The notes below the pieces were generated by a model. It searched no databases and was not told the DNA's origin. It saw only the letters and a program-made list of their open reading frames with translations. Shown here in pieces: positions 17,161 to 35,088 of a stretch of DNA of 64,000 bases. The stretch is from Methylophilus sp. 13 (GTDB taxonomy: Bacteria; Pseudomonadota; Gammaproteobacteria; Burkholderiales; Methylophilaceae). Position numbers and translations under genes: made by a program. The DNA is taken from NCBI RefSeq assembly GCF_015354335.1, contig NZ_JADKYR010000001.1, positions 248,001 to 312,000 on the forward strand. The letters run 5' to 3'. Positions within the stretch are counted from its first letter, which is position 1. Every line of letters begins with the position of its first letter.

Positions 17161-19188
17161 ATGCAGCATCTGTTAAATCCTCCCCAGCGTGAAGCGATTC
17201 ACTATCTTGACGGCCCATTGCTGGTACTGGCAGGCGCTGGCAGTGGTAAAACTCGCGTCATTACCCAGAAAATTGCCTACCTGATCAACCAGGCGGGTTA
17301 CCAGGGTCATCAAATCGCGGCGATCACCTTTACCAACAAGGCCGCGCGTGAGATGCAGGAACGCGTGACCCCCTTGCTGGAAGGCAAAAGTGGCAAGGGA
17401 CTTACCGTCACCACTTTTCACTCCCTAGGCTTGCAGATTTTGCGCCAGGAAGCGGCGCTGCTCGGCTATAAACCGCAATTCTCCATTCTGGACGCCTCGG
17501 ACAGCTTTAAAATCCTCAGTGATATTTTAGCCACCACCGACAAGCAACTGTTGCGCAAAACACAATGGCAAATCTCCAGTTGGAAGAATGACTTTATCAG
17601 TCCGGATCAGGCCAAATCACAAGCCGATGAAGAGCTCACCCATGCCGCAGCCCGGGTGTACCAGCTTTATCAGCAAACCCTGCGCGCGTATCAGGCGGTA
17701 GACTTTGATGACCTGATCAAGGTGCCGGTGGAGCTGTTTGATCAGCACAGTGAAATGCTGGAAAAATGGCAACGCAAGTTGCACTACCTGCTCGTGGATG
17801 AATATCAGGATACCAATGCTTGCCAGTACAAACTGATTAAACAGCTAACCGGCCTGAGAGCACAATTCACCGCCGTAGGCGACGATGACCAGGCGATTTA
17901 TGGCTGGCGTGGTGCCGACGTGGAGAACTTGCGTCAGTTGACCACAGACTTTTCCAAACTCAAGGTGATCAAGCTCGAACAAAACTACCGCTCTACCGTG
18001 CGGATTTTGCGCGCGGCCAACCACGTCATTGCCAACAACCCCAAACTGTTTGAGAAAAAACTGTGGAGCGAACTCGGCACCGGCGACCTGATCCACGTCA
18101 CGGCGACGCAAAGTGAAGAGCACGAAGCAGAAACCGTGGTGATGAAGCTGCAAGCGCACAAATTCGAGCATCGCACGACTTACAAAGACTACGCCATTCT
18201 CTACCGCAGCAACCACCAGGCGCGGATTATTGAGCAATTTCTGCGTAACCACAAAATCCCCTACACAATTTCGGGGGGCCAATCATTTTTTGACAAGGCT
18301 GAGATCAAAGACATCATCAGCTATCTGCGCCTGATCATGAACGAAGATGATGATCCTGCCTTTATCCGTGCCGCCACCACGCCGAAAAAAGGCATAGGCA
18401 ACACCACGCTGGAGCGATTGGGCGAATACGCCAGCGCACACAAGATGTCATTGTTTGCCGCCGCCTTTGAAGGTGGCTTTCAGCATGAGGTCGGCGCCAA
18501 ACAGCTCGATGACCTGCTAACCTTCTGCCGCTTTATCCAAACACTGCAAGGCCGTGCTGTCAAAGACCCTGCTAACGAAGTGCTCAGCGATTTACTCACC
18601 GCCATCCAGTATGAAAGCTATCTGTACGACGGTGAAGAAGCCAGATCTGCCGAGACGCGCTGGGGCAATGTACAAGAATTCGTCGCCTGGCTCAGCAAAA
18701 AAGGCGAAGCCTCGACCGAGTTCGGCCATGAATCGGACGGTAAAAACCTCATCGAACTGACACAACTGGTTTCGCTCATCACCATGCTAGAAGGCCGCGA
18801 AGATGGCGAACCAGATGCCGTCAAACTCTCTACCCTGCACGCCTCAAAAGGACTGGAATACGGCCATGTGTTTCTGATCGGCTGTGAAGAAGGCATCCTG
18901 CCTCACACCAACTCCATCGACGCCGACCAGATTGAAGAAGAACGCCGACTCATGTATGTAGGCATTACCCGCGCCCAAAAATCACTCAACATCACCTGGT
19001 GCAAAAAACGTAAACGCGCCGGAGAAATGCAAGCCTGCGAGCCTAGCCGTTTTATTAGCGAATTGCCTAAAGATGATGTTAAACACTTTGGCAACCCGTT
19101 TAATGGGCCAGATCAGGTGCTGAGTAAAGATTATGGCAAGAGTAAGATGGCAAATATTAAGGCGATGCTGGCGAGTAAGCCCCTTTAA
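17161..19188 (+). CDS. rep: ATP-dependent DNA helicase Rep
   Basis: A 675-residue superfamily 1A 3'-5' helicase, essentially the same length as E. coli Rep (673). Motif I is GAGSGKT (25-31), motif Ia ITFTNKAAREM, motif II LLVDEYQDTN, motif III VGDDDQAIYGWRGA, motif IV KLEQNYRST, motif V VKLSTLHASKGLE and motif VI RRLMYVGITRAQ. The C-terminal KMANIKAMLASKPL also matches Rep rather than UvrD. It acts in replication restart and in removing proteins ahead of the fork. It starts at ATG 17161 and stands alone upstream of the polysaccharide locus. Confidence 0.95.
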   Translation: MQHLLNPPQREAIHYLDGPLLVLAGAGSGKTRVITQKIAYLINQAGYQGHQIAAITFTNKAAREMQERVTPLLEGKSGKGLTVTTFHSLGLQILRQEAALLGYKPQFSILDASDSFKILSDILATTDKQLLRKTQWQISSWKNDFISPDQAKSQADEELTHAAARVYQLYQQTLRAYQAVDFDDLIKVPVELFDQHSEMLEKWQRKLHYLLVDEYQDTNACQYKLIKQLTGLRAQFTAVGDDDQAIYGWRGADVENLRQLTTDFSKLKVIKLEQNYRSTVRILRAANHVIANNPKLFEKKLWSELGTGDLIHVTATQSEEHEAETVVMKLQAHKFEHRTTYKDYAILYRSNHQARIIEQFLRNHKIPYTISGGQSFFDKAEIKDIISYLRLIMNEDDDPAFIRAATTPKKGIGNTTLERLGEYASAHKMSLFAAAFEGGFQHEVGAKQLDDLLTFCRFIQTLQGRAVKDPANEVLSDLLTAIQYESYLYDGEEARSAETRWGNVQEFVAWLSKKGEASTEFGHESDGKNLIELTQLVSLITMLEGREDGEPDAVKLSTLHASKGLEYGHVFLIGCEEGILPHTNSIDADQIEEERRLMYVGITRAQKSLNITWCKKRKRAGEMQACEPSRFISELPKDDVKHFGNPFNGPDQVLSKDYGKSKMANIKAMLASKPL

Positions 19189-19227
19189 TGTAGGATATGT
19201 GCTCGACCCTTTCCAAGTTGTCACACA

Positions 19228-19236
19228 TGATATAAT
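19228..19236 (+). promoter_or_regulatory. extended -10 promoter for the polysaccharide operon
   Basis: TGATATAAT is a perfect extended -10 element (TG-N-TATAAT). No good -35 is present at 17 bp, which is normal for extended -10 promoters. Transcription would start near 19243, 24 bases before the gmd ATG. Confidence 0.5.
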
Positions 19237-19266
19237 CCACACACTTTTTAACCGAATCGTCTAAAC

Positions 19267-20355
19267 ATGTCTCCCAAAGTTGCATTAATCACTGGCGTTA
19301 CTGGCCAAGATGGCGCCTATCTGGCAGAACTTCTCCTTAATAAAGGTTACATTGTTCACGGCATTAAAAGACGATCATCGTTGTTTAATACGGCACGCGT
19401 AGATCATCTTTTTCATGATACACATTCACAAGGAAAACCCTTTTACTTACATCACGGGGACATGACAGACTCCTCAAGCCTCACGCATATCATCCAGAAA
19501 GTACAACCTGATGAGATTTATAATTTAGCAGCTCAGAGTCATGTCGCCGTTTCATTTGAAGAGCCAGAATACACAGCTAACTCTGATGCCTTAGGCGCCT
19601 TACGCATTTTGGAAGCAATCCGTATTCTTGGTCTGACGAAGAAAACTAAATATTACCAAGCTTCAACCTCAGAACTCTATGGACTGGTACAAGAAACACC
19701 GCAAAAGGAAACGACTCCATTCTATCCACGCAGCCCCTACGCCGTAGCCAAGTTGTATGCCTATTGGATTACTATAAATTACCGTGAGGCCTATGGCATA
19801 TATGCTTGTAATGGCATTCTGTTCAATCATGAGAGCCCCATACGCGGCGAAACTTTCGTCACGCGTAAGATAACAAGAGCACTAGCGCGCATCAAACTTG
19901 GTTTACAGGATTGTCTCTATCTAGGCAATCTAGATGCCAAACGCGACTGGGGTCATGCCAAGGATTATGTGGAGATGCAATGGCTGATGCTACAACAGCA
20001 GATAGCCGAAGACTTTGTGATAGCCACTGGCGTGCAATATAGTGTGCGCGATTTTGTCGATGCGGCTGCCGCAGAACTTGGAATAACTATCCATTGGCAA
20101 GGTGAGGGCGTAGACGAAAAAGGATATGATCAGAAAGGCAAATGTGTAGTGCAAGTGGATCCACGTTATTTCCGCCCAACCGAAGTTGAAACCCTCCTGG
20201 GTGATGCCTCTAAAGCGAGAGAAAAGCTAGGCTGGACTCCTAAAATTCCGTTTGCAGATTTAGTCACAGAAATGGTAAGAGAGGACTTACGCACTGCAGA
20301 ACGCGATGAGTTAGTTAAAAAACACGGCTACGTGGTGCAAAACTATTTCGATTAA
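19267..20355 (+). CDS. gmd: GDP-mannose 4,6-dehydratase
   Basis: A 362-residue extended-type SDR enzyme that converts GDP-D-mannose to GDP-4-keto-6-deoxy-D-mannose. The NADP-binding motif is GVTGQDG (10-16). The active site is visible as STSELYG (about 133-139) with Tyr158 and Lys162 in SPYAVAK. The segment [20 protein letters not shown] is diagnostic for Gmd. It is the first gene of the locus, and the next two genes can use its product, giving GDP-L-colitose (or GDP-L-fucose). No GDP-mannose synthesis genes (manB, manC) are in the window, so the substrate must come from elsewhere in the genome. Confidence 0.95.
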
Positions 20356-20362
20356 ACAAATC

Positions 20363-21283
20363 ATGCGCATTTTACTTACTGGCGGCAGTGGACTAGTTGG
20401 CAAAAATCTGATTGATGCCTTTGCTGGTACATCAATCGAATGGTTGGCACCAGCTAGCCAGCAAATGAATCTACTCGATTATGCCCAAACCCGCCAAATG
20501 ATTGCCGAATTTAAACCAGAGTTAGTCATCCATGCTGCTGGGATGGTGGGCGGTATACAGGCAAATATCCGCGAACCTGTTAGCTTTCTAGTCAATAACT
20601 TAGACATGGGCCGAAACCTACTAATGGCCTGCCTGGAAAATGGTGTAAAACAAGTGCTCAATTTGGGAAGTTCCTGTATGTATCCTAGAAACCATCAGGA
20701 ACCACTAACGGAAGAGAAGATTTTAACCGGGGAGCTGGAGGCGACCAATGAAGGTTACGCATTGGCCAAGATTGTCACGGCGCGTTTGGGAGAGTACATT
20801 CAGCGGGAGCATCCCGACTTTAATTACAAGACATTAGTACCCTGCAACTTGTATGGGAAGTATGATAAGTTTGATCCCAAACACTCACACTTAATCCCAG
20901 CTATCATCCATAAAATCCACCTAGCCAAACAGCATGGGGAGAAAACCGTTGAGATATGGGGCAACGGCGAGGCAAGACGGGAGTTTATGTATGCTGGCGA
21001 TTTGGCAAACTTTATAATCTCTGCCGTTGATCGATTTCCTGAATTGCCAGCGGTGATGAATGTCGGCCTCGGCTATGACTATACAATCAATGAATATTAT
21101 GAAGCAACTGCCGAGGTCATCGGTTTTGAAGGTACCTTCGTACATGACCTAAGTAAACCTGTAGGCATGGCGCGGAAACTGGTCAATGTGGACAAGCAAA
21201 CGGCCTTGGGCTGGCAACCCAAACACTCACTCAAGCAAGGCATCGCCAGCACTTATCAATTTTATCTGAAGGAACAGCAATAA
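20363..21283 (+). CDS. GDP-fucose-synthase-family epimerase/reductase, probably GDP-L-colitose synthase (ColC)
   Basis: A 306-residue SDR enzyme of the Fcl/ColC family, which epimerises at C5 and reduces the 4-keto group. NADP binding is by TGGSGLVG (6-13). The catalytic residues are in GSSCMYP (Ser and Cys) and YALAK (Tyr and Lys), with the conserved His in HSHLIPA. It is shorter than E. coli Fcl, and in segments such as IQANIREPV and MNVGLGYDYTINEYY it appears closer to ColC. The position between gmd and colD, with no other reductase present, makes GDP-4-keto-3,6-dideoxymannose the likely substrate. GDP-L-fucose synthesis remains possible. It overlaps colD by one base. Confidence 0.8.
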   Translation: MRILLTGGSGLVGKNLIDAFAGTSIEWLAPASQQMNLLDYAQTRQMIAEFKPELVIHAAGMVGGIQANIREPVSFLVNNLDMGRNLLMACLENGVKQVLNLGSSCMYPRNHQEPLTEEKILTGELEATNEGYALAKIVTARLGEYIQREHPDFNYKTLVPCNLYGKYDKFDPKHSHLIPAIIHKIHLAKQHGEKTVEIWGNGEARREFMYAGDLANFIISAVDRFPELPAVMNVGLGYDYTINEYYEATAEVIGFEGTFVHDLSKPVGMARKLVNVDKQTALGWQPKHSLKQGIASTYQFYLKEQQ

Positions 21284-22455
21284 TGTCTTTTAAATACCCT
21301 CTCGCCACCACCACCTGGGATGAGAAGGAAATAGCGGCGATGCACCGCGTGATTGATTCTGGGATGTTTACCATGGGTAATCACGTCAAAACATTCGAGG
21401 AACAATTTGCCTCATTCACAGGCAGCGAATATGCCATTATGGTCAACTCGGGCTCCTCAGCTAATCTTATTATGATTGCCGCATTGTTTTATAGCCAGAA
21501 CCCAGCTTACCAGTTGAAACGTGGTGATGAAGTGATCGTGCCAGCAGTATCTTGGAGCACCACGTATTACCCTTTATACCAATACGGACTGAAACTGAAA
21601 TTTGTCGATATTGACCTGGGTACACTAAATTTTGATCTGGAACAGCTGGAATCGGCGATTACTGAGAATACACGCGCAATTCTGGCAGTGAACCTTTTGG
21701 GCAACCCTAATGATTTTAAGCGCATTCAACAAATTACAAAAGATAAAAACATCCTGTTGCTGGAAGACAATTGTGAATCCATGGGAGCGACCTTTGAAGG
21801 CAAGCAGGCAGGTACTTTTGGTCTGATGGGTACTTACAGCACCTTCTTCAGCCACCATATCTCCACCATGGAAGGTGGCTTAGTCGTCACCAACGATGAA
21901 GAGCTCTACCAGATCATGCTGTCCCTACGAGCGCATGGCTGGACACGTAACTTGCCCAAAAACAACCTTGTATGTGGTGAAAAAAGTGATGAACCCTTTG
22001 AAGAATCATTCCGCTTTGTATTACCGGGATACAATCTCAGACCTTTAGAACTATCGGGGGCAATAGGCCTACAGCAGCTGGAAAAACTACCCAGTCTAAT
22101 TAGCGAGAGAAGAAAAAATGCTGAACTACTCAAATCTAAACTATCAGAACATCCCGACATATTAATTCAGAAAGAAATCGGCGAGAGTAGTTGGTTTGGT
22201 TTTAGTCTAGTCATAAAATCCACAAGCAAATTGACGCGTCAAGAATTAATTTCAAAACTTGTTCATGCTGGAATTGAATGTAGGCCAATAGTTACTGGAA
22301 ACTTTACCAAGAACGAGGTAATTAAATATTTTGATTCAACAGTATCAGGCAGTTTAAAAAATGCAGAGCATATTGACAAAAATGGATTATTTATCGGAAA
22401 TCATCACTACTCGCTATTGGAAGAAATCCACTTGCTATACGAAACGCTTTCCTAA
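21283..22455 (+). CDS. colD: GDP-4-dehydro-6-deoxy-D-mannose 3-dehydratase (ColD)
   Basis: A 390-residue PLP enzyme of the DegT/DnrJ/EryC1 fold. The position normally held by the Schiff-base Lys is His191 in FFSHHISTMEGG, matching His188 of E. coli ColD after allowing for three extra upstream residues. Other ColD stretches are present: VPAVSWSTTYYPL, VNLLGNPNDF, LLEDNCESMGATF, RAHGWTRNLPK and GIECRPIVTGNF. The enzyme removes the C3 hydroxyl of GDP-4-keto-6-deoxymannose by a pyridoxamine/glutamate mechanism. It is therefore a dehydratase and not an aminotransferase, as automatic pipelines often call it. Its last third becomes AT-rich, the left edge of an anomalous-composition region. Confidence 0.93.
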   Translation: MSFKYPLATTTWDEKEIAAMHRVIDSGMFTMGNHVKTFEEQFASFTGSEYAIMVNSGSSANLIMIAALFYSQNPAYQLKRGDEVIVPAVSWSTTYYPLYQYGLKLKFVDIDLGTLNFDLEQLESAITENTRAILAVNLLGNPNDFKRIQQITKDKNILLLEDNCESMGATFEGKQAGTFGLMGTYSTFFSHHISTMEGGLVVTNDEELYQIMLSLRAHGWTRNLPKNNLVCGEKSDEPFEESFRFVLPGYNLRPLELSGAIGLQQLEKLPSLISERRKNAELLKSKLSEHPDILIQKEIGESSWFGFSLVIKSTSKLTRQELISKLVHAGIECRPIVTGNFTKNEVIKYFDSTVSGSLKNAEHIDKNGLFIGNHHYSLLEEIHLLYETLS

Positions 22456-22464
22456 ATAGTGATA

Positions 22465-23331
22465 ATGAAAATTAAACTAATGTTCGACTTGCCCCCTAAA
22501 TCAGTCAATACAAAACCGATAACAACTATCAGCTCCGAAAAATCCTCCAAAGATGTATTAAGAGATTTGTGGAATTTTAAAGACTTGCTCTTCCTTTTGA
22601 CTTGGAGAGATCTCTTAGTCAGATACAAACAAACATTTTTTGGTGTTGCATGGGCCATATTTAGGCCGTTAATAACGGTGATGGTTTTTGCTTTTATTTT
22701 CGGGAAAGTTGCAAAACTGCCATCCGGAAATACCCCCTACTTTCTATTTGTGTTTGCTGGAATGATACCTTGGCAATTTTTCTCCAGTTCTCTTTCCGAA
22801 GCAGGTAATAGCTTGGTTGCAAATGCAAACATTATTACAAAAATCTACTTCCCAAGATTGTTAATGCCCCTTTCAAGTATCGCCGCCTGTCTAGTTGATG
22901 CACTTATCACAGGAATAATATTTTGCGTACTTTTAGTTTGGTATCAGGTTGAGTTTACTTGGCATATTCTAATACTGCCAGCATTTATCATTTGGTTGGT
23001 ATTACTAACTATTGGATTAAGTATTTGGACCGCAGCTTTAAATGTTACCTACAGGGACTTTAGATATTTAATTCCTTTTATGGTGCAATTAGGCATGTAT
23101 ATTTCCCCTGTGGGATTTAGCAGTCAAATTATTCCTGATAAATGGCTTTGGTTATTTTATATTAACCCGATGGCAAGCATTATTGATGGATTTAGATGGT
23201 GCATATTTAATCAATCAAGCAATTTCAATGTATCAATGTCTATTACTGGAATAGTTATTACACTTTTAATGTTTGTGTATGGCTTAATCTTCTTTAAGAA
23301 TGCAGAAGATAGCTTTGCAGATAGGATTTAG
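22465..23331 (+). CDS. wzm: O-antigen/polysaccharide ABC transporter permease (Wzm)
   Basis: A 288-residue ABC-2 permease with six predicted membrane segments. LLFLLTWRDLLVRYKQTFFG before the first helix, FVFAGMIPWQFFSSSL, NVTYRDFRYLIPF and YISPVGFSS are typical of Wzm/KpsM/TagG-type polysaccharide exporters. It moves undecaprenyl-linked polysaccharide across the inner membrane together with Wzt, encoded 1 base downstream. I use the ATG at 22465, two codons after a GTG; no strong ribosome-binding site is visible. Confidence 0.9.
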   Translation: MKIKLMFDLPPKSVNTKPITTISSEKSSKDVLRDLWNFKDLLFLLTWRDLLVRYKQTFFGVAWAIFRPLITVMVFAFIFGKVAKLPSGNTPYFLFVFAGMIPWQFFSSSLSEAGNSLVANANIITKIYFPRLLMPLSSIAACLVDALITGIIFCVLLVWYQVEFTWHILILPAFIIWLVLLTIGLSIWTAALNVTYRDFRYLIPFMVQLGMYISPVGFSSQIIPDKWLWLFYINPMASIIDGFRWCIFNQSSNFNVSMSITGIVITLLMFVYGLIFFKNAEDSFADRI

Positions 23332-23332
23332 C

Positions 23333-24604
23333 ATGTCGCCAGTAATTAAAGTTGAAAATATTTCAAAAAGCTATTTAATTAACCATAATCAATCAGATAG
23401 GTACAAAACCGTGAGGGATGAAATAACTCACGGAATGGGGCGATTTTATTCTAGGTTAAAAAACCCGCTACAAAAATCAAGTACTAGTGAAGTTTTCTGG
23501 GCCCTTAAAGATATATCATTTTCTATCAATGCCGGAGAATGTATTGGCGTAATTGGAAGAAATGGTGCTGGAAAATCTACACTTTTAAAAACTTTATCAA
23601 GAATCACGAAACCAACAAGCGGAAAAATAACCCTAGTTGGCAAACTTGGCTGCCTTCTTGAAGTTGGAACAGGTTTCCACCCTGAGCTAACTGGCAGAGA
23701 GAACATATATCTTAATGGCGCAATTTTAGGAATGGGCCGAAATGAGATTAAAATGAAATTCGACGAGATTGTTGAGTTTTCAGAAATTGAACGTTTTCTA
23801 GATACTCCTGTAAAGCGTTACTCAAGTGGAATGTATGTGCGATTAGCATTTTCTGTAGCCGCACATTTAGAGCCAGAGCTTCTCATTTTAGATGAAGTAC
23901 TCGCTGTGGGGGACCAAAAATTTCAACAAAAATGCTTTGATCAAATAAGAAGATTAGGTCGAGATAGTGGCCGAGCAGTTATGCTCGTCTCCCATAATAT
24001 GGCTGCGATATCTCGAATTTGCAACAGAAGCTTACTGCTAGAAAGTGGTAGATTGATTGCAGATGGTCCCACGCAGGAAGTGCTTGAAAAATACGCGACC
24101 CAAAGCAACACAACAGAGCTAGGGACAAGAGTTATGCTCGACTCTTGGGAGAACAGAGAGGGTAAAAGAGATATTGCACAAATCACCTGGGTACAAATAC
24201 TAGCTCACGACTCTGACTATAGCATGATTTATGTAGGCTCAAATTTGCTGATAAGATTCGCTGTTAACTTTGACAAACAATTAAAAGGTAATGATATTAC
24301 TTTGGCAGTCCAGCTCTCAACTATATCTGGTTATCAAATAGCAAATATGCTAGCTACAGACTCTAACTATATACCTAACTCAATGAAAGGCGAGTGTGTA
24401 TTTGAAGTTATGTTAGAGGATATAAGATTTTATCCCGGAGAATATTTGATTAGCTTATGGGTTGGCAACGCATCATCAGAACCATATGACTATGTTTTGG
24501 AGTGTGGGAGATTTGAAGTTCACGAAGGCGGCGCAAAAGCTCTTCGCAGACTTCCACGAGTTGAAGGAATGCACTTCCTCACTCCAAAATGGCAATTACT
24601 GTGA
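23333..24604 (+). CDS. wzt: polysaccharide ABC transporter ATPase with C-terminal carbohydrate-binding domain (Wzt)
   Basis: A 423-residue ATPase. Walker A is GRNGAGKST (75-83), the signature YSSGM ends at residue 167, and Walker B is LLILDE (183-188). After about residue 265 a beta-rich Wzt_C domain follows (to about 410, with YPGEYLISLWVGN). In E. coli O8/O9a this domain recognises the modified non-reducing end of the finished polysaccharide, so export here is probably coupled to a specific terminal cap. The methyltransferase genes downstream are candidates for making that cap. ATG at 23333 has AGGA 6 bases upstream. Confidence 0.92.
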   Translation: MSPVIKVENISKSYLINHNQSDRYKTVRDEITHGMGRFYSRLKNPLQKSSTSEVFWALKDISFSINAGECIGVIGRNGAGKSTLLKTLSRITKPTSGKITLVGKLGCLLEVGTGFHPELTGRENIYLNGAILGMGRNEIKMKFDEIVEFSEIERFLDTPVKRYSSGMYVRLAFSVAAHLEPELLILDEVLAVGDQKFQQKCFDQIRRLGRDSGRAVMLVSHNMAAISRICNRSLLLESGRLIADGPTQEVLEKYATQSNTTELGTRVMLDSWENREGKRDIAQITWVQILAHDSDYSMIYVGSNLLIRFAVNFDKQLKGNDITLAVQLSTISGYQIANMLATDSNYIPNSMKGECVFEVMLEDIRFYPGEYLISLWVGNASSEPYDYVLECGRFEVHEGGAKALRRLPRVEGMHFLTPKWQLL

Positions 24605-24617
24605 TTGGAAAAAGTAA

Positions 24618-25325
24618 ATGAAAAGTTTTCTTGCAAGACTACTTGGCTATATTGGAGTCAAAATCTTAAAACTATCCGAGTTAATTTGTCTATCCTCCTC
24701 AAAAGAGGGTAAACCAACAGCTAATGAAATGACTCCCCATCAAGCGTGGTTAAAAGATAATGGCGACAAGTCCTTGAGGTTAAATTATGACCTAAACGAA
24801 AACGATGTGGTTCTAGATGTTGGGGGATATGAGGGTCAATGGGCTAGTGATATATTTTCCAAATATCAATGCAAAATATACATTTTTGAACCTGTGCCTG
24901 ATTTTTTTGCTGCAATCTCAAAAAGGTTTTCTCAAAATAAAAGAATTCATGTACTCAATTTTGGACTTAGCAGCTCAAATAGCATTATTAATATTTCAGT
25001 TGATGGTGATGCTTCGTCATCGATAAGACTAAACCAAGAAACTACTAAAGTACAACTAAGAAGCTTTGAAAGCTGGTTCAAAGATCAGAAGTTAGAAGTT
25101 ATTGCTTTAATGAAAATTAATATAGAGGGCGGTGAATATGATTTACTAAATCATATAATTGAAACAGGATTAATACACAAAATAACTAACATTCAAGTTC
25201 AGTTTCACGATTTCTTCCCGGAAGCAGAATCTAGAATGTTGAACCTACAAAGTAGACTTTCGAAAACACACTATCCAACATATCAATATAACTTTATTTG
25301 GGAAAATTGGGCTTTAAAGGAATAA
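24618..25325 (+). CDS. FkbM-family methyltransferase
   Basis: A 235-residue SAM-dependent methyltransferase of the FkbM family. The SAM motif is VVLDVGGYEGQWA (about 70-82), an acidic residue follows in YIFEPVPDF, and MKINIEGGEYDLL is the family motif near residue 170. FkbM enzymes usually O-methylate sugars or natural products. Set just after a Wzt with a terminal-recognition domain, it may add a methyl cap that ends chain growth; this is inference. The sequence is AT-rich like its neighbours. Confidence 0.85.
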   Translation: MKSFLARLLGYIGVKILKLSELICLSSSKEGKPTANEMTPHQAWLKDNGDKSLRLNYDLNENDVVLDVGGYEGQWASDIFSKYQCKIYIFEPVPDFFAAISKRFSQNKRIHVLNFGLSSSNSIINISVDGDASSSIRLNQETTKVQLRSFESWFKDQKLEVIALMKINIEGGEYDLLNHIIETGLIHKITNIQVQFHDFFPEAESRMLNLQSRLSKTHYPTYQYNFIWENWALKE

Positions 25326-25328
25326 CTT

Positions 25329-26192
25329 GTGATTACAGTTCGTGTAATTGGCGGTTTAGGTAATCAGATGTTTCAATATGCTGCAGGTAGATCATTATCA
25401 ATAAGAAGGAATGACTTACTCAAACTAGATATAACAGGCTTTGAGAATTACGTATTACATGACTATGGATTAAATCATTTCAACGCCATAGCAAATTTAT
25501 CCACATCTGAACTATTAAAAAATGAAAAAAAACCTTCATACCAGCGATTTTGTAACCTTTTTAACCGTAATAAAAAAACAAAGGTTTTCAAAGAAAACGG
25601 GTTGCTATTTAATCCTCTAATCAACAACATTAAAGGTGATATATATCTAGATGGATATTGGCAGTCAGAGCAATATTTTAAAGAACACGAATCTATTATT
25701 AGAAGCGACTTCAGAATTACCACTCATCCTTCACTAGAAAACTTGCAGACTCTAGAGAAAATTAACTCGTCTAAATCAATTTCTCTGCATATTCGCAGAG
25801 GGGATTATGTTAACAACAGCCAAACTAATGCTATTCATGGTGTTTGCAGTCTTGGCTATTATCAAGAAGCATTGCAACTCTTAAAAAGAAAGCTTGATGC
25901 ACGTGATTTACATGTTTTTGTTTTTTCAGATGATCATTCATGGGTAGAAAAAAACTTGATCATAGATGCAGAGGTTACATATGTCAGAAATAACTCAGCC
26001 AAAACAAATTATGAAGATCTACGACTTATGAGCGCATGTCAGCATCATATTATTGCCAATAGTTCTTTCAGCTGGTGGGGAGCTTGGCTGAATCCTAATA
26101 CTGATAAAATTGTAATAGCCCCAAAAAACTGGTTTAAATCCACTGAATTAAATTCCAAAGACATTATTCCCTCAAATTGGATAAGGTTGTGA
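25329..26192 (+). CDS. GT11 family alpha-1,2-fucosyltransferase (possibly colitosyltransferase)
   Basis: A 287-residue glycosyltransferase of CAZy family GT11. The hallmarks are GGLGNQMFQYAAGRSL at residues 8-23, HIRRGDYV (GDP-sugar binding), and a late motif, IIANSSFSWWGAWLN. GT11 enzymes use GDP-L-fucose, and some in colitose-containing O-antigens are thought to use GDP-L-colitose, a 3-deoxyfucose. Since ColD is encoded in the same operon, colitose is a real candidate donor. The start is GTG at 25329, 3 bases after the upstream stop. Confidence 0.9.
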   Translation: MITVRVIGGLGNQMFQYAAGRSLSIRRNDLLKLDITGFENYVLHDYGLNHFNAIANLSTSELLKNEKKPSYQRFCNLFNRNKKTKVFKENGLLFNPLINNIKGDIYLDGYWQSEQYFKEHESIIRSDFRITTHPSLENLQTLEKINSSKSISLHIRRGDYVNNSQTNAIHGVCSLGYYQEALQLLKRKLDARDLHVFVFSDDHSWVEKNLIIDAEVTYVRNNSAKTNYEDLRLMSACQHHIIANSSFSWWGAWLNPNTDKIVIAPKNWFKSTELNSKDIIPSNWIRL

Positions 26193-26193
26193 A

Positions 26194-27042
26194 ATGTTTT
26201 CTAGACCCGATAATAACTACAATGTATCAGATGATGTTATTGATGCAATTCTAAAAGACCAAGCACATCCAATATTTCATATCGTTAATTACGTTAAAGA
26301 TGGCCAAAAAATTTTAGATATTGGCGCAGGTAGTGGTGTATTAGCACGAGCTATATTAAAGTCAAAAAAAAATGTATCGATCGACGGTGTTGAGCCTAAT
26401 CGCTATGCGGCAAACATGGCGGCCAATTTTTATCGAACAATGCTATGTGGATATGTTCAAGAATTTTATGCTGAGATTAGTGAAAAAAAATACGACATCA
26501 TAATTCTAGCTGACGTTATAGAACACATATCTGATCCGCTCGAGATGCTGAAACAGCTCATGAAATATATTGATTCAAGTACAAAAATTTTTATATCCAT
26601 CCCTAATGTTGCATTTGGCGGCGTACGATTAGCGCTTTTTAATGGCAGTTTTAATTACACTGACTCGGGCTTATTGGAACGAACTCATCTGAGATTCTTT
26701 ACAAGAAATACTGCAGATAAAATGTTTGAAAAATTAGAATTGTTAACAGAGCACCTTTTTTCATTGGAACGTAGTTTTTACAGAGTGGAGTTTAAGAGAA
26801 CCGAGTTATCAGCTTCATTTATTAGCATATTTAAATTAGCTCGCTTGAGTGATGCCAGAGCCTATCAATTTTTATACATTTTAAGCAAAGAAGCAAATCC
26901 CGAGAAGTTTTCCCAAAACATCATTATTCATGCTGGCACCTCTTTTTACTCAATAATGAGAGATTATTTCTTTTATCAATCTCATTTTGTTAAAATATAC
27001 AATTTAGCACTAAAAGTTATTAGAAAAATACAAAATGCCTAA
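26194..27042 (+). CDS. class I SAM-dependent methyltransferase
   Basis: A 282-residue protein. The SAM-binding motif is ILDIGAGSGVLARAI (about 40-54), the acidic ribose contact lies in DGVEPN, and DIIILADVIEHI is typical of the Methyltransf_23/UbiG-like group. The C-terminal third is unassigned and rich in aromatic and Lys residues. It probably methylates a sugar or the end of the glycan, which would fit Wzt_C-dependent export. It overlaps the next gene by 8 bases. Confidence 0.8.
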   Translation: MFSRPDNNYNVSDDVIDAILKDQAHPIFHIVNYVKDGQKILDIGAGSGVLARAILKSKKNVSIDGVEPNRYAANMAANFYRTMLCGYVQEFYAEISEKKYDIIILADVIEHISDPLEMLKQLMKYIDSSTKIFISIPNVAFGGVRLALFNGSFNYTDSGLLERTHLRFFTRNTADKMFEKLELLTEHLFSLERSFYRVEFKRTELSASFISIFKLARLSDARAYQFLYILSKEANPEKFSQNIIIHAGTSFYSIMRDYFFYQSHFVKIYNLALKVIRKIQNA

Positions 27043-28048
27043 AGTATCGATATGCATTCCTGCATATATGCAGGTTGCCTATTTGAAAGAATGCCTGCTT
27101 TCAATATCAGAACAAACCATTAAGGACTATGAACTAATTATATCCGATGATTCGCCAGATGATTCAGTTTATAACCTTATAAAACAATTTGATTTTGGAG
27201 GGCGTTTAAAATACTTTAAAAACTCTTCTCCCTTAGGTTCTCCAAAAAATTGGAACTTTGCAATTCAACATGCTACAAGCGATCTTATTAAGCTAATGCA
27301 TCATGACGATTCTTTTTCATCCCCACAATCGCTTGAAAAATTTATTAGCCTAATGGATGAGAACCCAACTGCAAATTTTGGGTTTTCAGCTAGCAAAGTT
27401 AAAAATGTGACTAACAATAAGAGTTGGATTCATACTGCGTCAGAGAGACAAGTTGCGCAAATTCAAACGAACCCAGAGTTATTAATACTTGGAAATTTAA
27501 TTGGATCGCCCAGCTCCACAATTTACAGAAGAAATATTAATATCGAATATGACAATAAGCTGAAATGGTTAGTGGATATCGACTTTTATATCAGAGTAAT
27601 CCAACAAGGGAACAAAATTGTAAACACTCAAGAAGCATTCATTACCACGCCAACAAATGCTTCACACCAAGTTACTGAAGAATGTATAAACAATTGCCAG
27701 TTGGAACTCTATGAATACACAACTCTATATTTAAAAAATCAAGATCAGGTTTCAGGAAATACTAGTATAAATAACCATTTACTTGGCATACTAGCCAAAT
27801 ATAGAATTTTCAACAAAAAGGCTCTTCACTTAGAACCCTACTTTACCTCTCAACAAATAGATGTTTTAGAACAACTATTAGTAAGGTTCAAAAATCAACC
27901 TATTATAAAGTTTATATACTACGTCTATTGGTGGCAAAATGGTCCTTTGTTCTTAATAAAAATTATCAGATTTCTGATTCATCAAGCATATAGTTTGTTA
28001 TCTTTAATTCGCTTACTTTACAATCCTAAAAATTATAAAAACCAGTAA
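27035..28048 (+). CDS. glycosyltransferase family 2
   Basis: A 337-residue GT2 enzyme with a GT-A fold: VSICIPAYMQVAYLKECLLSI at the N terminus, DYELIISDDSPDDS, and the metal-binding acidic motif LMHHDDSF near residue 90. The C-terminal part (about 240-337) is predicted helical with a hydrophobic stretch that may rest on the membrane. It presumably adds one sugar to the lipid-linked repeat; donor and linkage cannot be told from sequence. Confidence 0.85.
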   Translation: MPKVSICIPAYMQVAYLKECLLSISEQTIKDYELIISDDSPDDSVYNLIKQFDFGGRLKYFKNSSPLGSPKNWNFAIQHATSDLIKLMHHDDSFSSPQSLEKFISLMDENPTANFGFSASKVKNVTNNKSWIHTASERQVAQIQTNPELLILGNLIGSPSSTIYRRNINIEYDNKLKWLVDIDFYIRVIQQGNKIVNTQEAFITTPTNASHQVTEECINNCQLELYEYTTLYLKNQDQVSGNTSINNHLLGILAKYRIFNKKALHLEPYFTSQQIDVLEQLLVRFKNQPIIKFIYYVYWWQNGPLFLIKIIRFLIHQAYSLLSLIRLLYNPKNYKNQ

Positions 28049-28065
28049 TAACTAATAGTCGGTAT

Positions 28066-29874
28066 ATGAGTCAACCAACACTATCCGCTTTACCACTAGT
28101 ATCAGTAATCACATCAGTCAAAAATGGTGAGAAATACTTACGAAAATCCCTACAAAGCATTATTGATCAAGACTACACTAACTTTGAATTCATTATAATA
28201 GATGATTATTCAACAGATAAAACAATAGAAATTCTGCATGATTTTTCTAAAAAAGATAACAGAGTAAAAGTCTATAAGAATTCCTATCTTCCTGGCTTAG
28301 CGAATGCTTTAAACTACGGAATTAGTCTATCAAAAGGAAAATATATCGTACGCCAAGATGCAGACGACGTATCTTTGTCAGAAAGACTTCGAGTCCAAGT
28401 TGAGTTTATGGAAAGCCATCTAGAAATATTTATTTCAGGAAGCTACATAAATCTCATAGATGAAGACGATAACTTCTTAAAAATCCACAGAGAACCACTT
28501 TCAAATGATGAAATAAAACTTCATTTGATGGTTGGTACTCCTTTCGCACATCCATCCGTAATAATGCGGAGGGATTTGATAATTAAGTACAATTTATCGT
28601 ATCAGGAATTACCTGCTCAAGACTATGAACTATGGTCTAGAGCGATTAATGCTGGTCTGAAGGGCGAAAATCTACCAAAACCGCTTGTAAACTATAGAGT
28701 ATATAAGGAATCAGATAGTGCATTAAGAGCTCCACGTCATGAGGCAATGGCTACCTTAATATCAAACTATCAAATAACACAATTTACCTCATATAAAGAT
28801 ATTAGATTTTTCTTAAACCTTGAAGAATACAAACGTGTTGCACATTATCTATTGACGGGGAATGCAATAGTTTCAAGCCAATATGACTTTTTAATTGCAA
28901 GGCATATTCTTAAAATATGGAAAAGTATCGGTCAGATTGAATTATCAAATCCTCTAATGAGGTATAACTTACTGCCAAAATCGATTTATGGTTATATTAA
29001 ATGTCCTTTAGTATTTCTAAAGTATATGCTGCACAGAAGAACTTATAAAAAAACAGCATGTGATTTAACCACCAACGAAAAAGAGAGCTTAAAGCAAAAT
29101 ATCCCAATAATAATAATTGTTAGGGACAGACTTTCATGCCTCAGACAGTTAATTTCTAGATTAGAAAATGATGGTTATAAGAATTTAATTCTGTTAAATA
29201 ACAACTCCTCATTCCCTCCCCTACTTGAGTTCTTATCTCAATCTGAATTTAAAGTCATAAATCTTCATGAAAATCTGGGGCATACTGTTCTCTGGCAACT
29301 TGAGGAATTAAGAGACTTCATTAAAGCTAATTGGTTCGTATATACAGATCCTGATGTCATACCTACTATTGAAGCTAAGTCAGATTATGTTGCAACATTC
29401 TTTGAGTCTTTATTGAAACTCCCAAAGTTCAAAAAGGCTGGCTTTTCTCTCAAAATAGACGATTTACCAGATCACTTTCATTTGAAGAAAACTGTCACAT
29501 CTTGGGAAAAGCAATTTTATAAAAACAGAATAAATGAAAACTACATAGCAGACATTGACACAACTTTTGCATTATATCGACCAAACACACCATATTGTTT
29601 TGGTCCGGCAATACGATCTGTAAAGCTGTTTGCTCGCCACTTACCTTGGTACTTAGACGGAAAAAACTTAGATGAAGATGAATTATTCTATAGAAATAAT
29701 GCCTCTCAAGTTATTACCACATGGAATGTATCTGGCGAGTCAAAAGAGTTGAAAATGGCCTCGCCATTAGATAAATTCTTGAGCAATACTTATCTATTCC
29801 TTCTAAGCAATTCAATCACTCACTCCTTTGCAAAAAAAACAAAGGAGCTCTTGAGAAAAAATAATGCAAAATAA
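28066..29874 (+). CDS. two-domain glycosyltransferase (GT2 plus second GT-A-like domain)
   Basis: A 602-residue protein with two catalytic-looking modules. Residues about 10-240 are a GT2 domain (VSVITSVKNGEKYLRKSL, IIIDDYSTD, VRQDADDVSLSERL). After a linker with a YIKCPLVFLKYMLHRR stretch, residues about 345-600 show a second nucleotide-sugar transferase fold (IPIIIIVRDRLSCLRQLI, LILLNNNSS, WFVYTDPDVIPT with a DxD-like motif). It may add two successive sugars, as bifunctional O-antigen polymerising transferases do. That is inference. It sits in the AT-rich stretch and overlaps the next gene by 11 bases. Confidence 0.8.
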   Translation: MSQPTLSALPLVSVITSVKNGEKYLRKSLQSIIDQDYTNFEFIIIDDYSTDKTIEILHDFSKKDNRVKVYKNSYLPGLANALNYGISLSKGKYIVRQDADDVSLSERLRVQVEFMESHLEIFISGSYINLIDEDDNFLKIHREPLSNDEIKLHLMVGTPFAHPSVIMRRDLIIKYNLSYQELPAQDYELWSRAINAGLKGENLPKPLVNYRVYKESDSALRAPRHEAMATLISNYQITQFTSYKDIRFFLNLEEYKRVAHYLLTGNAIVSSQYDFLIARHILKIWKSIGQIELSNPLMRYNLLPKSIYGYIKCPLVFLKYMLHRRTYKKTACDLTTNEKESLKQNIPIIIIVRDRLSCLRQLISRLENDGYKNLILLNNNSSFPPLLEFLSQSEFKVINLHENLGHTVLWQLEELRDFIKANWFVYTDPDVIPTIEAKSDYVATFFESLLKLPKFKKAGFSLKIDDLPDHFHLKKTVTSWEKQFYKNRINENYIADIDTTFALYRPNTPYCFGPAIRSVKLFARHLPWYLDGKNLDEDELFYRNNASQVITTWNVSGESKELKMASPLDKFLSNTYLFLLSNSITHSFAKKTKELLRKNNAK

Positions 29875-30820
29875 ATTCTGTTCCATCGTTGTAACATTTA
29901 ATCCCAATATTGATTTACTAATGGAGCAATTTGATATACTAAGCTCGCACAGCGATCTCATAGTATTTGTAGACAACGGCTCAGATAATATCTCTAAAAT
30001 TCAATTAAATGAGTTTTTTAGCACTGCAAAAATTATTAGTCTCAAAGAAAATCTTGGTATTGGATATGCTCAAAACATAGGCCTAATCTGTGCCATTGAA
30101 AGCGGCTTTTCTAGAGCAATCCTGTTCGATCAAGATAGTATCCCAACCGTGGAAATGTTTTCAAGATTGCTAAACGCACTTACCGAAAATGTTATTGCAT
30201 CCGGTCCATCATACGAAGACCCAAGATCAGGTATAAGCTCATTCTTCATAATTCAGAAAAAACTTTTTCCAAACAGATGGTTTCCAGAAAAATCACATCA
30301 AGCAGAGCAACTAGTTGACACTGCCTTTCTAATTGCATCAGGCACAACTATCAATTTAAATTTATTAAAGAAATGTGGCGGTATGAAAAGTGATTACTTC
30401 ATTGATCACGTTGATACTGAGTGGTGCTTTAGAGCGCGTAATGCAGGTTACCGTACAATTGGTATACCTAACGCAAAAATGAAACACTCACTTGGCGATG
30501 AAGTTAAAAAAGTTTGGTTTTTTGGATGGAGGCAGGTCTCTTATCACTCCCCTCTAAGAGACTATTATATGTTCCGTAATACCATCTTAATGTTGAAAGA
30601 TAACCCTATGTCGTTTATCTGGAAAAGTCACTTTATATGGCGACTTATTCAATTTGCAACATATTTTTTAACTTTCGCCCCATTAAGAAAAGAGCGTTTT
30701 ATAAAAATGTCTTTGGGTATTATGCATGGCTTAAAAAATATCAGAGGCAAACTGGATATTAATACACACACTTGCCATGCAATCCCCAAAACAGAACTTG
30801 ATCCCACATGCCTAAAATAG
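29864..30820 (+). CDS. glycosyltransferase family 2, rhamnosyltransferase-like
   Basis: A 318-residue GT2 enzyme resembling bacterial dTDP-rhamnosyltransferases of the COG1216/RfbF type: SIVVTFNPNIDLLMEQ, VFVDNGSDN, ENLGIGYAQNIG, ILFDQDSIPT (acidic DxD-like motif) and FIDHVDTEWCFRARNAGY. No rhamnose synthesis genes (rmlABCD) are in this window, so the donor is uncertain. Start and stop overlap both neighbours (11 and 13 bases), consistent with a tightly packed operon. Confidence 0.82.
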   Translation: MQNKFCSIVVTFNPNIDLLMEQFDILSSHSDLIVFVDNGSDNISKIQLNEFFSTAKIISLKENLGIGYAQNIGLICAIESGFSRAILFDQDSIPTVEMFSRLLNALTENVIASGPSYEDPRSGISSFFIIQKKLFPNRWFPEKSHQAEQLVDTAFLIASGTTINLNLLKKCGGMKSDYFIDHVDTEWCFRARNAGYRTIGIPNAKMKHSLGDEVKKVWFFGWRQVSYHSPLRDYYMFRNTILMLKDNPMSFIWKSHFIWRLIQFATYFLTFAPLRKERFIKMSLGIMHGLKNIRGKLDINTHTCHAIPKTELDPTCLK

Positions 30821-31707
30821 CAATATTACTCACCGTTTTTAATGGGGAAAGCTGGTTAGAAGAACAGTTAGAATCGATACTAGCTCAAGAAAATGTTATT
30901 TTAGACTTATATATTTCCGATGACTTATCCTCAGATCTATCTCAAAAAATTATTCATGACTACGCTAACAAATTCTCTAACGTCACTGTCTTACCAAGTC
31001 ATACTAGGCAGGGGAATGCTGCTCTGAATTTTTTCAGACTAATTCGCGACGTTGCTTTCGCAGAGTACTCATACATCGCCTTTTCTGACCAAGATGACAT
31101 ATGGCTACCAGAAAAACTCTCAATAGCTCTCGACAAAATTAAACGTCAAAATATTGATGGATATTCCAGCAACGTGACTGCATTCTGGTCTGATGGTAAA
31201 AAGCAGCTTATCCATAAAGCGCAATCACAAACACGGTATGACTATATGTTTGAATCTGCTGGCCCGGGTTGTACCTTTGTGATTTCGCAAAAACTGGCGC
31301 TGGCAATTCAAGAATTGCTCAGAAAAAAACAAACCGAACTAAGCACTGTTGCTTTGCATGACTGGTTTATTTATGCATTTGCAAGATCGAACAACTATAA
31401 ATGGTATATAGATCCCACACCTACAATTTTATATCGTCAACATGCTACAAATGTAGTTGGAGCAAATACTGGCATGAAAGCATTTATAGCGAGAGTATCA
31501 AAATTAAAACAAGGATGGTATTTACAACAAATCCTCTTAATTGCCAAAGAACTTGGTTATCAGGAAGCGGAACCTATTAAAAAAATGACCAACCTATGCA
31601 TTTGGGATCGTTGTTACCTCGCAATATTTGCCCATCAATTTAGACGACGACTACGTGATCAGCTGGGTTTTGCCTTTTTTGCTTTGTTTTTAGCCAAAAA
31701 ATCATGA
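30808..31707 (+). CDS. glycosyltransferase family 2 (RfbG/WbbL-like)
   Basis: A 299-residue GT2 enzyme: KIAILLTVFNGESWLEEQL at the N terminus, LYISDDLSSD, then AFSDQDDIWLPEKL, the strongly conserved SDQDDIW motif of this O-antigen transferase group, and ALHDWFIY with a catalytic Asp. The C terminus is basic and hydrophobic (QFRRRLRDQLGFAFFALF). Members often transfer rhamnose or related deoxyhexoses; donor unknown here. It overlaps the epimerase gene by 4 bases. Confidence 0.85.
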   Translation: MPKIAILLTVFNGESWLEEQLESILAQENVILDLYISDDLSSDLSQKIIHDYANKFSNVTVLPSHTRQGNAALNFFRLIRDVAFAEYSYIAFSDQDDIWLPEKLSIALDKIKRQNIDGYSSNVTAFWSDGKKQLIHKAQSQTRYDYMFESAGPGCTFVISQKLALAIQELLRKKQTELSTVALHDWFIYAFARSNNYKWYIDPTPTILYRQHATNVVGANTGMKAFIARVSKLKQGWYLQQILLIAKELGYQEAEPIKKMTNLCIWDRCYLAIFAHQFRRRLRDQLGFAFFALFLAKKS

Positions 31708-32588
31708 ATTTATTGATTACGGGTGCCAATGGATTTGTGGGCGCATCATTGAGCAAAATGCTCATCAACTGCAAGCACAATGTCACAGCATTGCGCCGTG
31801 ATTTTAATCCATCAGAGTTACCTTTTGATTATTACAGTTGCCTAATTCACCTTGCAGGACGTGCACACGTCATGCATGAAACTACAGAGGATGTTTATTC
31901 GGCTTATAGAGCAGTGAATGTAAACTACACTCTTAAGGTGGCTGAGTTAGCTAGATCATCGGGAATAAAGCGTTTTATTTTTTTGAGTTCTATTAAGGTG
32001 AATGGTGAGGTTACAAACGTACCATTCGACGAGTCATATGCACCGGCACCGTTGGACGCATATGGTCAAACTAAATTAGAAGCTGAGCTATTATTAAAAG
32101 ATTTTTGTACCGAGCATCAAATAGAGTTGGTAATTATTCGTGCACCTTTGATTTATGGGCCAGGAGTAAAAGCTAACTTTAAATCATTGATTCAACTCTG
32201 CAAGAAACCAGTTCCGTTACCGTTTGGATCTGTACGCAACAAGCGTAGTCTTGTGAGTTTAGATAATTTGAATAATTTTATTGAGTTATGCTGCATCCAT
32301 CCAACAGCAGCTAACCAGACATTTCTAATTTCTGATGATCAAGATATTTCAACTAAACAACTCGTCAATACGATAAGAGCAGCATTAGGACGAAACTCAT
32401 GGCAACTCCCGATACCTGCATCACTTTTATCTATTTTTTTTAATCTTGTAGGTAAACATTATCTGAATGAACGTTTGTTAAGCAACTTGCAGCTGGATAT
32501 AAGCAAAGCGAAACGACTTCTTAATTGGAGGCCAGTTCTAAACTTCGAAGATGGCATTAAACAGACTGTGACAGATTATGTGGATTAA
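31704..32588 (+). CDS. NAD-dependent epimerase/reductase (WbpK/WbpV-like UDP-HexNAc C4 enzyme)
   Basis: A 294-residue extended SDR protein. The NAD motif is TGANGFVG (7-14), the Ser of the active site lies in FLSSIKVNGE, and Tyr/Lys are in YGQTK. IHLAGRAHVMHE is characteristic of the WbpV/WbpK group that finishes UDP-QuiNAc or UDP-FucNAc by 4-keto reduction or C4 epimerisation. It is followed by a sugar-phosphate transferase and a 4,6-dehydratase, the same trio found in many O-antigen loci. The trio would make and load the first sugar, probably QuiNAc or FucNAc, onto undecaprenyl phosphate. Confidence 0.82.
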   Translation: MNLLITGANGFVGASLSKMLINCKHNVTALRRDFNPSELPFDYYSCLIHLAGRAHVMHETTEDVYSAYRAVNVNYTLKVAELARSSGIKRFIFLSSIKVNGEVTNVPFDESYAPAPLDAYGQTKLEAELLLKDFCTEHQIELVIIRAPLIYGPGVKANFKSLIQLCKKPVPLPFGSVRNKRSLVSLDNLNNFIELCCIHPTAANQTFLISDDQDISTKQLVNTIRAALGRNSWQLPIPASLLSIFFNLVGKHYLNERLLSNLQLDISKAKRLLNWRPVLNFEDGIKQTVTDYVD

Positions 32589-33153
32589 GAGAGTTTTAGA
32601 TATCTTACTGGCTTTGATCGCAACAGTATGCTTAAGTCCATGTTTATTAATCACTTATCTATTAGTAAAACTAAGCTCTAAAGGCCCCGCATTATACTGG
32701 AGCAAGCGAGTCGGTCAGAAAAACAAGCTTTTTAGCATGCCAAAATTCCGGTCCATGCGTGTGGGAACACCTCAAATTGCCACCCATTTGCTGAATCAGC
32801 AAACGGATCCCAATGCATTCTTAACACCTGTAGGAAGTTTTATCAGAAAAACCAGCCTAGACGAGTTACCGCAATTATGGAGCGTGCTGAAAGGGGATAT
32901 GTCTGTTGTCGGGCCACGTCCTGCACTTTTCAATCAAGACGATTTAATCGCATTACGCACTGAAAAGAACGTTCATACTCTGAAACCAGGCATCACCGGC
33001 TGGGCACAAGTAAATGGACGGGACGAAATTCCCATTCCACAAAAAGTGGCTCTGGATGAATACTATCTAAAGCATCGATCAATCTGGTTAGATATTAAGA
33101 TTATCTGCATGACAGTGATCAAGGTCATCCGGCGTGATAACATCACGCATTGA
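32578..33153 (+). CDS. initiating undecaprenyl-phosphate sugar-1-phosphate transferase (short, PglC/WcaJ-C type)
   Basis: A 191-residue monotopic phosphoglycosyl transferase comprising only the catalytic domain. One N-terminal hydrophobic segment (about residues 5-30) is followed by KFRSMRVG, the catalytic Asp-Glu in SLDELPQLWSVLKGDMSVVGPRP and KPGITGWAQVNGRDE. It starts glycan assembly by moving a sugar-1-phosphate from a UDP-sugar to undecaprenyl phosphate on the inner face of the membrane. It overlaps the epimerase gene by 11 bases. Confidence 0.9.
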   Translation: MWIKRVLDILLALIATVCLSPCLLITYLLVKLSSKGPALYWSKRVGQKNKLFSMPKFRSMRVGTPQIATHLLNQQTDPNAFLTPVGSFIRKTSLDELPQLWSVLKGDMSVVGPRPALFNQDDLIALRTEKNVHTLKPGITGWAQVNGRDEIPIPQKVALDEYYLKHRSIWLDIKIICMTVIKVIRRDNITH

Positions 33154-33170
33154 TTGATTATTTGATTTCT

Positions 33171-35087: not shown

Positions 35088-35088
35088 T

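Follow-up and report, generated by a model that had tools for sequence, protein, structure and literature searches.

Three adjacent genes of Methylophilus sp. 13, designated gmd, colC, and colD, very probably encode a complete branch leading to GDP-L-colitose. Colitose is a rare cell-surface sugar of some gut and marine bacteria. The genes lie at positions 19267-22455 of a 64,000-nucleotide stretch of contig NZ_JADKYR010000001.1 (positions 248,001 to 312,000 of the forward strand), which was analysed as a whole and is called the window. An earlier reading of this DNA from its letters, referred to as the original prediction, had proposed the three genes as the set needed to turn GDP-mannose into GDP-L-colitose. 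The open reading frames (ORFs), of 362, 306, and 390 aa on the plus strand, stood at the proposed coordinates, and the assignment is supported by model scores, identities, and trees.

In the proposed pathway, Gmd would convert GDP-D-mannose into GDP-4-keto-6-deoxymannose. ColD, using pyridoxamine 5′-phosphate (PMP) and carrying a histidine in place of the pyridoxal 5′-phosphate (PLP) lysine, would remove the C3 hydroxyl via dehydration and hydrolysis, with glutamate regenerating PMP, and ColC would then epimerise C5 and reduce C4 to yield GDP-L-colitose.

Assignment of ColD and ColC

The third gene product belongs to the DegT family (PF01041, 271 bits). When it was compared with solved structures using phmmer, four E. 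coli ColD chains scored 564-569 bits, the native chain (PDB 2gms) reaching 569 bits over residues 4-389 of the window protein, while the next-best solved enzymes were E1 (196 bits) and perosamine synthase (121 bits). The protein is 64% identical to the ColD of both E. coli O55 and O111. His191 (counted from the first Met of the ORF) sits in GTYSTFFSHHISTMEGG and aligns with the His188 column of E. coli ColD, at which three mutant ColD chains in the PDB depart from the native one, one of them also at the preceding column. In a 66-row alignment, which also served for the ColD tree, this column was His in all 59 ColD-type and all five RfbH-type rows, and two other DegT proteins of this genome had Lys and Ser, the Ser-bearing row being long and poorly aligned. 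A DegT fold with His in this register was what the original prediction had read, and the alignments with the PDB chains and across the 66 rows both bore it out. The catalytic Lys of aminotransferases is thus absent, with His at that column; a plain DegT sugar aminotransferase was ruled out on this ground and by the full-length match to ColD. Both the replacement of Lys by His and the way in which ColD uses glutamate to drive dehydration are described in an earlier paper (PMC8987622). The same His is common to ColD and RfbH/E1, so the residue by itself does not prove ColD, and the protein is assigned as ColD, a predicted GDP-4-keto-6-deoxymannose 3-dehydratase, because of full-length similarity and trees beyond the shared residue.

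The second gene product is 54% identical to the ColC of O55, 51% to that of O111, and 37% to E. coli Fcl. Its score with the Fcl model NF047922 was 299 bits and did not reach the curated cut-off of 500. This cut-off was not used as the sole criterion, being passed in just 3 of 150 Methylophilaceae genomes, with the Fcl-clade proteins of the family mostly falling slightly below it; the tree therefore carries the weight of the ColC assignment.

A tree of 99 reductases was built from 51 neighbours of ColD, including that of the window, two E. coli ColC proteins, and 46 Fcl rows. The ColD neighbours came from the odd-numbered loci of L024-L103, eight named extras, and those of L110-L117 with a reductase; neighbours more than 1.5 kb away or matching over fewer than 260 residues were dropped. 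The Fcl rows comprised E. coli Fcl and 45 of 60 Fcl loci (L127-L186), which were the best-scoring matches, so that weak Fcl relatives are under-represented. The ColC references were the O55 and O111 reductases, which are taken as ColC from gene context and serotype chemistry; the assayed Yersinia ColC stood outside the tree. The window reductase fell within a 46-row set with a support of 100 in the Shimodaira-Hasegawa-like approximate likelihood-ratio test (SH-aLRT); apart from the two E. coli ColC proteins, every member of this set was a ColD neighbour. The other side held all 46 Fcl rows together with seven ColD-neighbour reductases from three Campylobacter, one Helicobacter, two Brachyspira, and one spirochaete. 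Since two other Helicobacter rows lay inside the ColC set, the split between ColC and Fcl does not track species. The ColD-adjacent reductases of the two Brachyspira loci (L073, L097) and of a Spirochaetia bacterium (L091) form deep lineages of their own on the Fcl side.

In a careful tree of 43 rows, hand-picked from the 99 for spread, the ColC clade had a support of 100/100 with the window reductase inside it. Forcing the Methylophilus reductase trio that includes the window protein into the Methylophilaceae Fcl proteins cost 264 log units (p = 0.005 in the approximately unbiased, AU, test), and forcing it together with all Fcl cost 261 (p-AU 0.0004); both tests were framed after the tree was known. 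A placement of the window reductase among Fcl was rejected on these sequence data, and the grouping with ColC agrees with what the original prediction had led one to expect. Ser107, Cys109, Tyr136, Lys140, and His179 (E. coli Fcl numbering), the positions that matter for epimerase and reductase activity, are all present. At 12 columns separating ColC from Fcl, picked on the same rows that were scored, the window reductase agreed with ColC at 11 and had a different residue at the remaining one. We accordingly class it as ColC type, a predicted GDP-L-colitose synthase.

Distribution of ColD loci and choice of sugar

A wider set of 80 ColD loci from many phyla, taken from 149 relatives found, was combined with three E. 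coli loci. Many of these stretches end at contig ends, and the absences among the 83 loci are soft. A superfamily reductase was present in 81, lying within 1.5 kb of ColD (centre to centre) in 75. Of the 81 reductases, 71 were closer to ColC, with Gmd also present in 64 of these loci, while the remaining 10 were closer to Fcl and only two of them had Gmd. By its gene content, the window locus belongs to the class with ColC and Gmd. Among 150 Methylophilaceae genomes, ColD (58-100% identity) was found in 11, four of them among the 22 from the genus Methylophilus; RfbH-type matches (34-37% identity) occurred in eight, two of which also had ColD. An Fcl-model match of 296-317 bits lay directly beside ColD in all but one of the 11, and no match above that range occurred in any of them.

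Several observations weigh against a simple colitose reading of such loci. The first AU test, in which the trio and everything outside ColC were set against the remaining ColC rows, did not reject that constraint (p = 0.31). The constraint also holds if the trio branches deepest within ColC, so that membership itself was not probed, and the result shows loose branching within ColC. ColC could have some side activity on the substrate that has not been deoxygenated. One ColD-bearing genome (G080) had no reductase in its 4.15-kb stretch and no Fcl-model match at E 1e-60; the sugar made there may be another 3,6-dideoxy one, or the reductase gene may lie elsewhere. Conversely, genome G034 has a full-length Fcl-model match of 327 bits (C1:510485-511402), within the ColC-like score range, without ColD; it carries an RfbH-type gene, and its reductase was outside the tree set. 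Upstream of ColD in the G080 locus (L116) are a fragment of Gmd and a gene on the minus strand that had no match.

The presence of ColD is not enough to tell which sugar is made. In Campylobacter, the C3-dehydratases that make 3,6-dideoxyheptoses are reported to share 62-67% identity with the ColD of E. coli and Yersinia (PMC10440746), and these heptose-acting relatives are thus as close to E. coli ColD as the window protein is (64%), which also counts against the colitose assignment. A GDP-3,6-dideoxyheptose pathway as in C. jejuni HS:5/HS:11, in which the ColD relative acts on GDP-6-deoxy-4-keto-heptose ahead of a distinct epimerase and a C4-reductase, is nevertheless disfavoured by the gene content and seems very unlikely. 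The gene preceding the reductase is Gmd (592 bits), while 8 of the 10 loci with Fcl-closer reductases lacked Gmd at the level of 250 bits in the stretch examined, and the seven of the 10 reductases included in the 99-row tree were all on the Fcl side. In the careful tree, two Campylobacter reductases have Ser and Thr at Cys109, a position that is Cys in 23 of 23 ColC rows, although the mark is not general, as three other ColD neighbours outside ColC also have Cys. HddC is the enzyme of GDP-heptose supply. The two Campylobacter ColD loci tested bear it (405 and 414 bits; cut-off 300), while the best match to a Campylobacter HddC in the genome of the window reached only 86.5 bits at 34% identity. 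In a search directed at HddC alone, the NCBIfam HddC model gave at most 90 bits for four nucleotidyltransferases examined among the eight PF00483 matches of the genome, and its HddC-sized protein is identified as MurU (339 bits; cut-off 250). The genome has two RmlC-type epimerase genes (PF00908), both next to RmlA genes and neither in the window; the Campylobacter dideoxyheptose epimerase is of this type. The hexose product is therefore preferred because of Gmd, the ColC-type reductase, and the lack of any HddC-level gene found.

A GDP-L-fucose pathway with an unrelated neighbouring aminotransferase gene would fit the best curated NCBIfam match of the reductase, which is GDP-L-fucose synthase, and the GT11-family glycosyltransferase (GT) gene downstream, this family being best known for fucosyltransferases. 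The reductase nevertheless scores far under the Fcl cut-off and lies outside the Fcl clade, so that its tree already contradicts this reading, and the supposed aminotransferase is ColD, without the Lys that such an enzyme needs; we consider fucose still less probable than the heptose. A CDP-linked route to abequose, paratose, or tyvelose with an RfbH/E1 enzyme is the hardest of all to credit. RfbH likewise has His at the lysine position, and the RfbH model NF011936 is the top NCBIfam match of the third gene, but its 289 bits are under the cut-off of 423. The RfbH-type proteins of Methylophilaceae (34-36% identical by BLAST; ORFs of 438-457 aa) form a separate branch with a support of 98, and the first gene product clears the cut-off for GDP-mannose dehydratase while scoring only 73 bits against CDP-glucose dehydratase (cut-off 278).

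Locus layout, export, and cassette exchange

The predicted GDP-L-colitose genes open a cassette that continues with export and transferase genes (Table 1), and the view that they head a surface polysaccharide locus was thus upheld. All three are on the plus strand, with 7 bp between gmd and colC and a one-base overlap between colC and colD. Gmd shares 70% identity with each of the two copies in E. coli, that of O55 and that of its wca cluster. The helicase gene upstream of the cassette is presumably rep, a call made from its sequence, and the conserved part downstream ends with uup (NF050005, 832 bits; cut-off 900).

Table 1. Features of the colitose-type locus, in window coordinates
Feature	Position	Strand	Basis
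gmd, GDP-mannose 4,6-dehydratase, 362 aa	19267-20355	+	TIGR01472 592 bits (cut-off 415)
colC, predicted GDP-L-colitose synthase type C5-epimerase/C4-reductase, 306 aa	20363-21283	+	ColC identity, clade
colD, predicted GDP-4-keto-6-deoxymannose 3-dehydratase, 390 aa, His191 replacing PLP lysine	21283-22455	+	phmmer, identity
wzm-like ABC-2 polysaccharide export permease	22459-23331	+	PF01061 66.7 bits; about 5 hydrophobic segments (crude scan)
wzt-like export ATPase with Wzt C-terminal domain	23300-24604	+	ABC_tran 81.9 bits, Wzt_C PF14524 40.2 bits
FkbM-family methyltransferase	24618-25325	+	TIGR01444 62 bits (cut-off 37.7)
GT11-family transferase, candidate colitosyltransferase	25329-26192	+	PF01531 129.7 bits
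Methyltransferase	26194-27042	+	PF13489 61.6 bits
Four GT2-type glycosyltransferase genes	27035-28048, 28066-29874, 29864-30820, 30808-31707	+	PF00535 in 4/4
SDR (short-chain dehydrogenase/reductase) epimerase, bacterial sugar (phosphoglycosyl) transferase, PF02719 nucleotide-sugar dehydratase	31704-35087	+	PF01370, PF02397, PF02719
Variable cassette	19189-31853	n/a	Between helicase gene 17161-19188 and conserved 31854-36996

The genes for GDP-mannose supply would lie outside this locus and encode ManC/GMP-PMI together with an enzyme of the phosphomannomutase family; elsewhere in the genome, a single ManC/GMP-PMI match (721 bits, C1:123766-125163) adjoins a PGM/PMM protein. The window gmd is the sole Gmd-level gene of the genome (PF16363, 511 bits; next 331). 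No separate GDP-fucose synthase was seen in the genome, colC scoring 300 bits with the Fcl model and the next gene 51, and the GT11 protein is the best candidate colitosyltransferase for this reason. With its GT11 counterpart in the E. coli O55 colitose locus it shares 38% identity, and a phmmer search at E 0.1 turned up no relative of known structure. This protein would most likely attach the colitose. GT11 matches of at least 60 bits were present in only 18 of the 83 ColD loci. The two methyltransferase genes of the cassette flank the GT11 gene, possibly for O-methylation or capping of the polymer.

The colitose-bearing surface polysaccharide would most likely be exported via the Wzm/Wzt ATP-binding cassette (ABC) transporter, probably as a lipopolysaccharide (LPS) O-antigen rather than a capsule or exopolysaccharide. 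The marks of an ABC-dependent O-polysaccharide locus were all found, namely Wzm and a Wzt with its C-terminal domain (PF01061, PF00005, PF14524), with no Wzx or Wzy family among the Pfam matches of the window genes from wzm to 35087. Among the 12 genes scanned in this range, wzm alone had more than four hydrophobic segments in a crude scan. A Wzt match of at least 120 bits occurred in 5 of the 83 ColD loci.

The third GT2-type gene (29864-30820) has a weak PF00535 match (24.8 bits) and passes TIGR01556, placing a rhamnosyltransferase-family gene inside the cassette. Two clusters elsewhere in the genome (C1:125-131 kb and C7:41-45 kb) hold RmlA (518 and 519 bits), RmlC-family, and PF16363 dehydratase genes. 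Judged from these genes, rhamnose-type sugars may also occur in the polysaccharides of this strain.

The cassette spans 12.7 kb with a GC content of 37.3%, against 51.3% and 51.8% around it. In another genome of the same species (G099), the flanks were 97.05% identical up to 19178 and 97.44% identical from 31854 to the window end, and between them lay about 7 kb of other genes, comprising GT2 genes, a gene for an acyltransferase, and two that matched no Pfam family. A single stretch of 389 bases in this insert was 67% similar to window positions 31162-31545. The gmd-colC-colD genes had no match in G099 between the flanks, and no ColD was found in that genome at E 1e-60; its gmd and an Fcl above the cut-off sit at another place. 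In a congener (G066), this upstream flank and gmd are also present, and the gene after gmd belongs to the Fcl clade. The cassette therefore looks like a serotype-like, swappable surface-polysaccharide locus.

Meaning and comparison with known systems

Taken as a whole, a methylotroph polysaccharide with colitose, exported by an ABC transporter and not by Wzx/Wzy, with GT11 as the colitosyltransferase and with the exchange between rep and uup within the species reflecting serotype switching driven by phages or grazers, is a picture towards which we lean slightly. If true, it would mean phage- or grazer-driven serotype switching in a free-living one-carbon (C1) bacterium. The exchange makes surface-antigen variation testable in a methylotroph genus that is culturable and harmless; M. 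methylotrophus, a member of this genus, is used industrially. Methylophilus would join the predicted colitose makers, and the reductase clades together with Gmd and HddC offer a practical sequence rule for separating colitose, fucose, and 3,6-dideoxyheptose loci. Standard annotation as fucose synthase and aminotransferase hides colitose, as the original prediction had suspected: for E. coli O55 and O111, RefSeq labels the gene encoding ColD as a DegT aminotransferase, and the one encoding ColC as a "GDP-L-fucose synthase family protein" (O55) or an "NAD-dependent epimerase/dehydratase family protein" (O111).

The pathway itself, ColD loci in many phyla, and colitose in Betaproteobacteria are already known. 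The prediction of colitose in a methylotroph, with ABC-type export, is new within the literature searched. No publication joining colitose with Methylophilus was found in a search that mostly left subscription papers outside, and none on colitose in a methylotroph appeared, by title or start of abstract, among the matches listed. The suggestion that colitose is unreported from a methylotroph-like betaproteobacterium thus held for methylotrophs and failed for Betaproteobacteria, as a colitose-bearing LPS O-polysaccharide is reported from Herbaspirillum frisingense GSF30T (Velichko et al. 2020, cited in PMC8614823). A survey of 12,939 genomes includes L-colitose, whose sole mention in the main text concerns its absence in TACK archaea (PMC7725333).

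Within Methylophilus, the nearest named relatives of the window ColD are those of Methylophilus sp. QUAN (87%) and M. methylotrophus DSM 46235 (83%). Both have the gmd-colC-colD order of the window, on the same side of the shared upstream flank, although the latter, unlike the window, carries some 2-3 kb extra between the upstream flank and gmd. Neither showed Wzt at 120 bits within the stretches examined, and therefore the rest of the cluster, perhaps including export, differs. In C. jejuni HS:5/HS:11, a PLP-dependent C3-dehydratase of the ColD family likewise uses glutamate as the amino donor but is reported to act on a heptose and is followed by a separate epimerase (PMC10440746). The Campylobacter reductases beside ColD also fall in another clade of the 99-row tree than that of the window.

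The E. coli O55 and O111 clusters (L009, L010) have the same enzymes (ColD 64%, ColC 51-54%, and Gmd 70% identical to the window proteins) and the same colC-colD order with overlapping genes, and the O55 locus also carries a GT11-type gene. They differ in that other genes part gmd from colC, whereas the three genes are adjacent in the window, and in that manC and a phosphomannomutase gene lie within the E. coli clusters, while manC stands elsewhere in the Methylophilus genome. Finally, wzx and wzy are present in O55 and O111, in contrast to the Wzm/Wzt pair that follows colD in the window.

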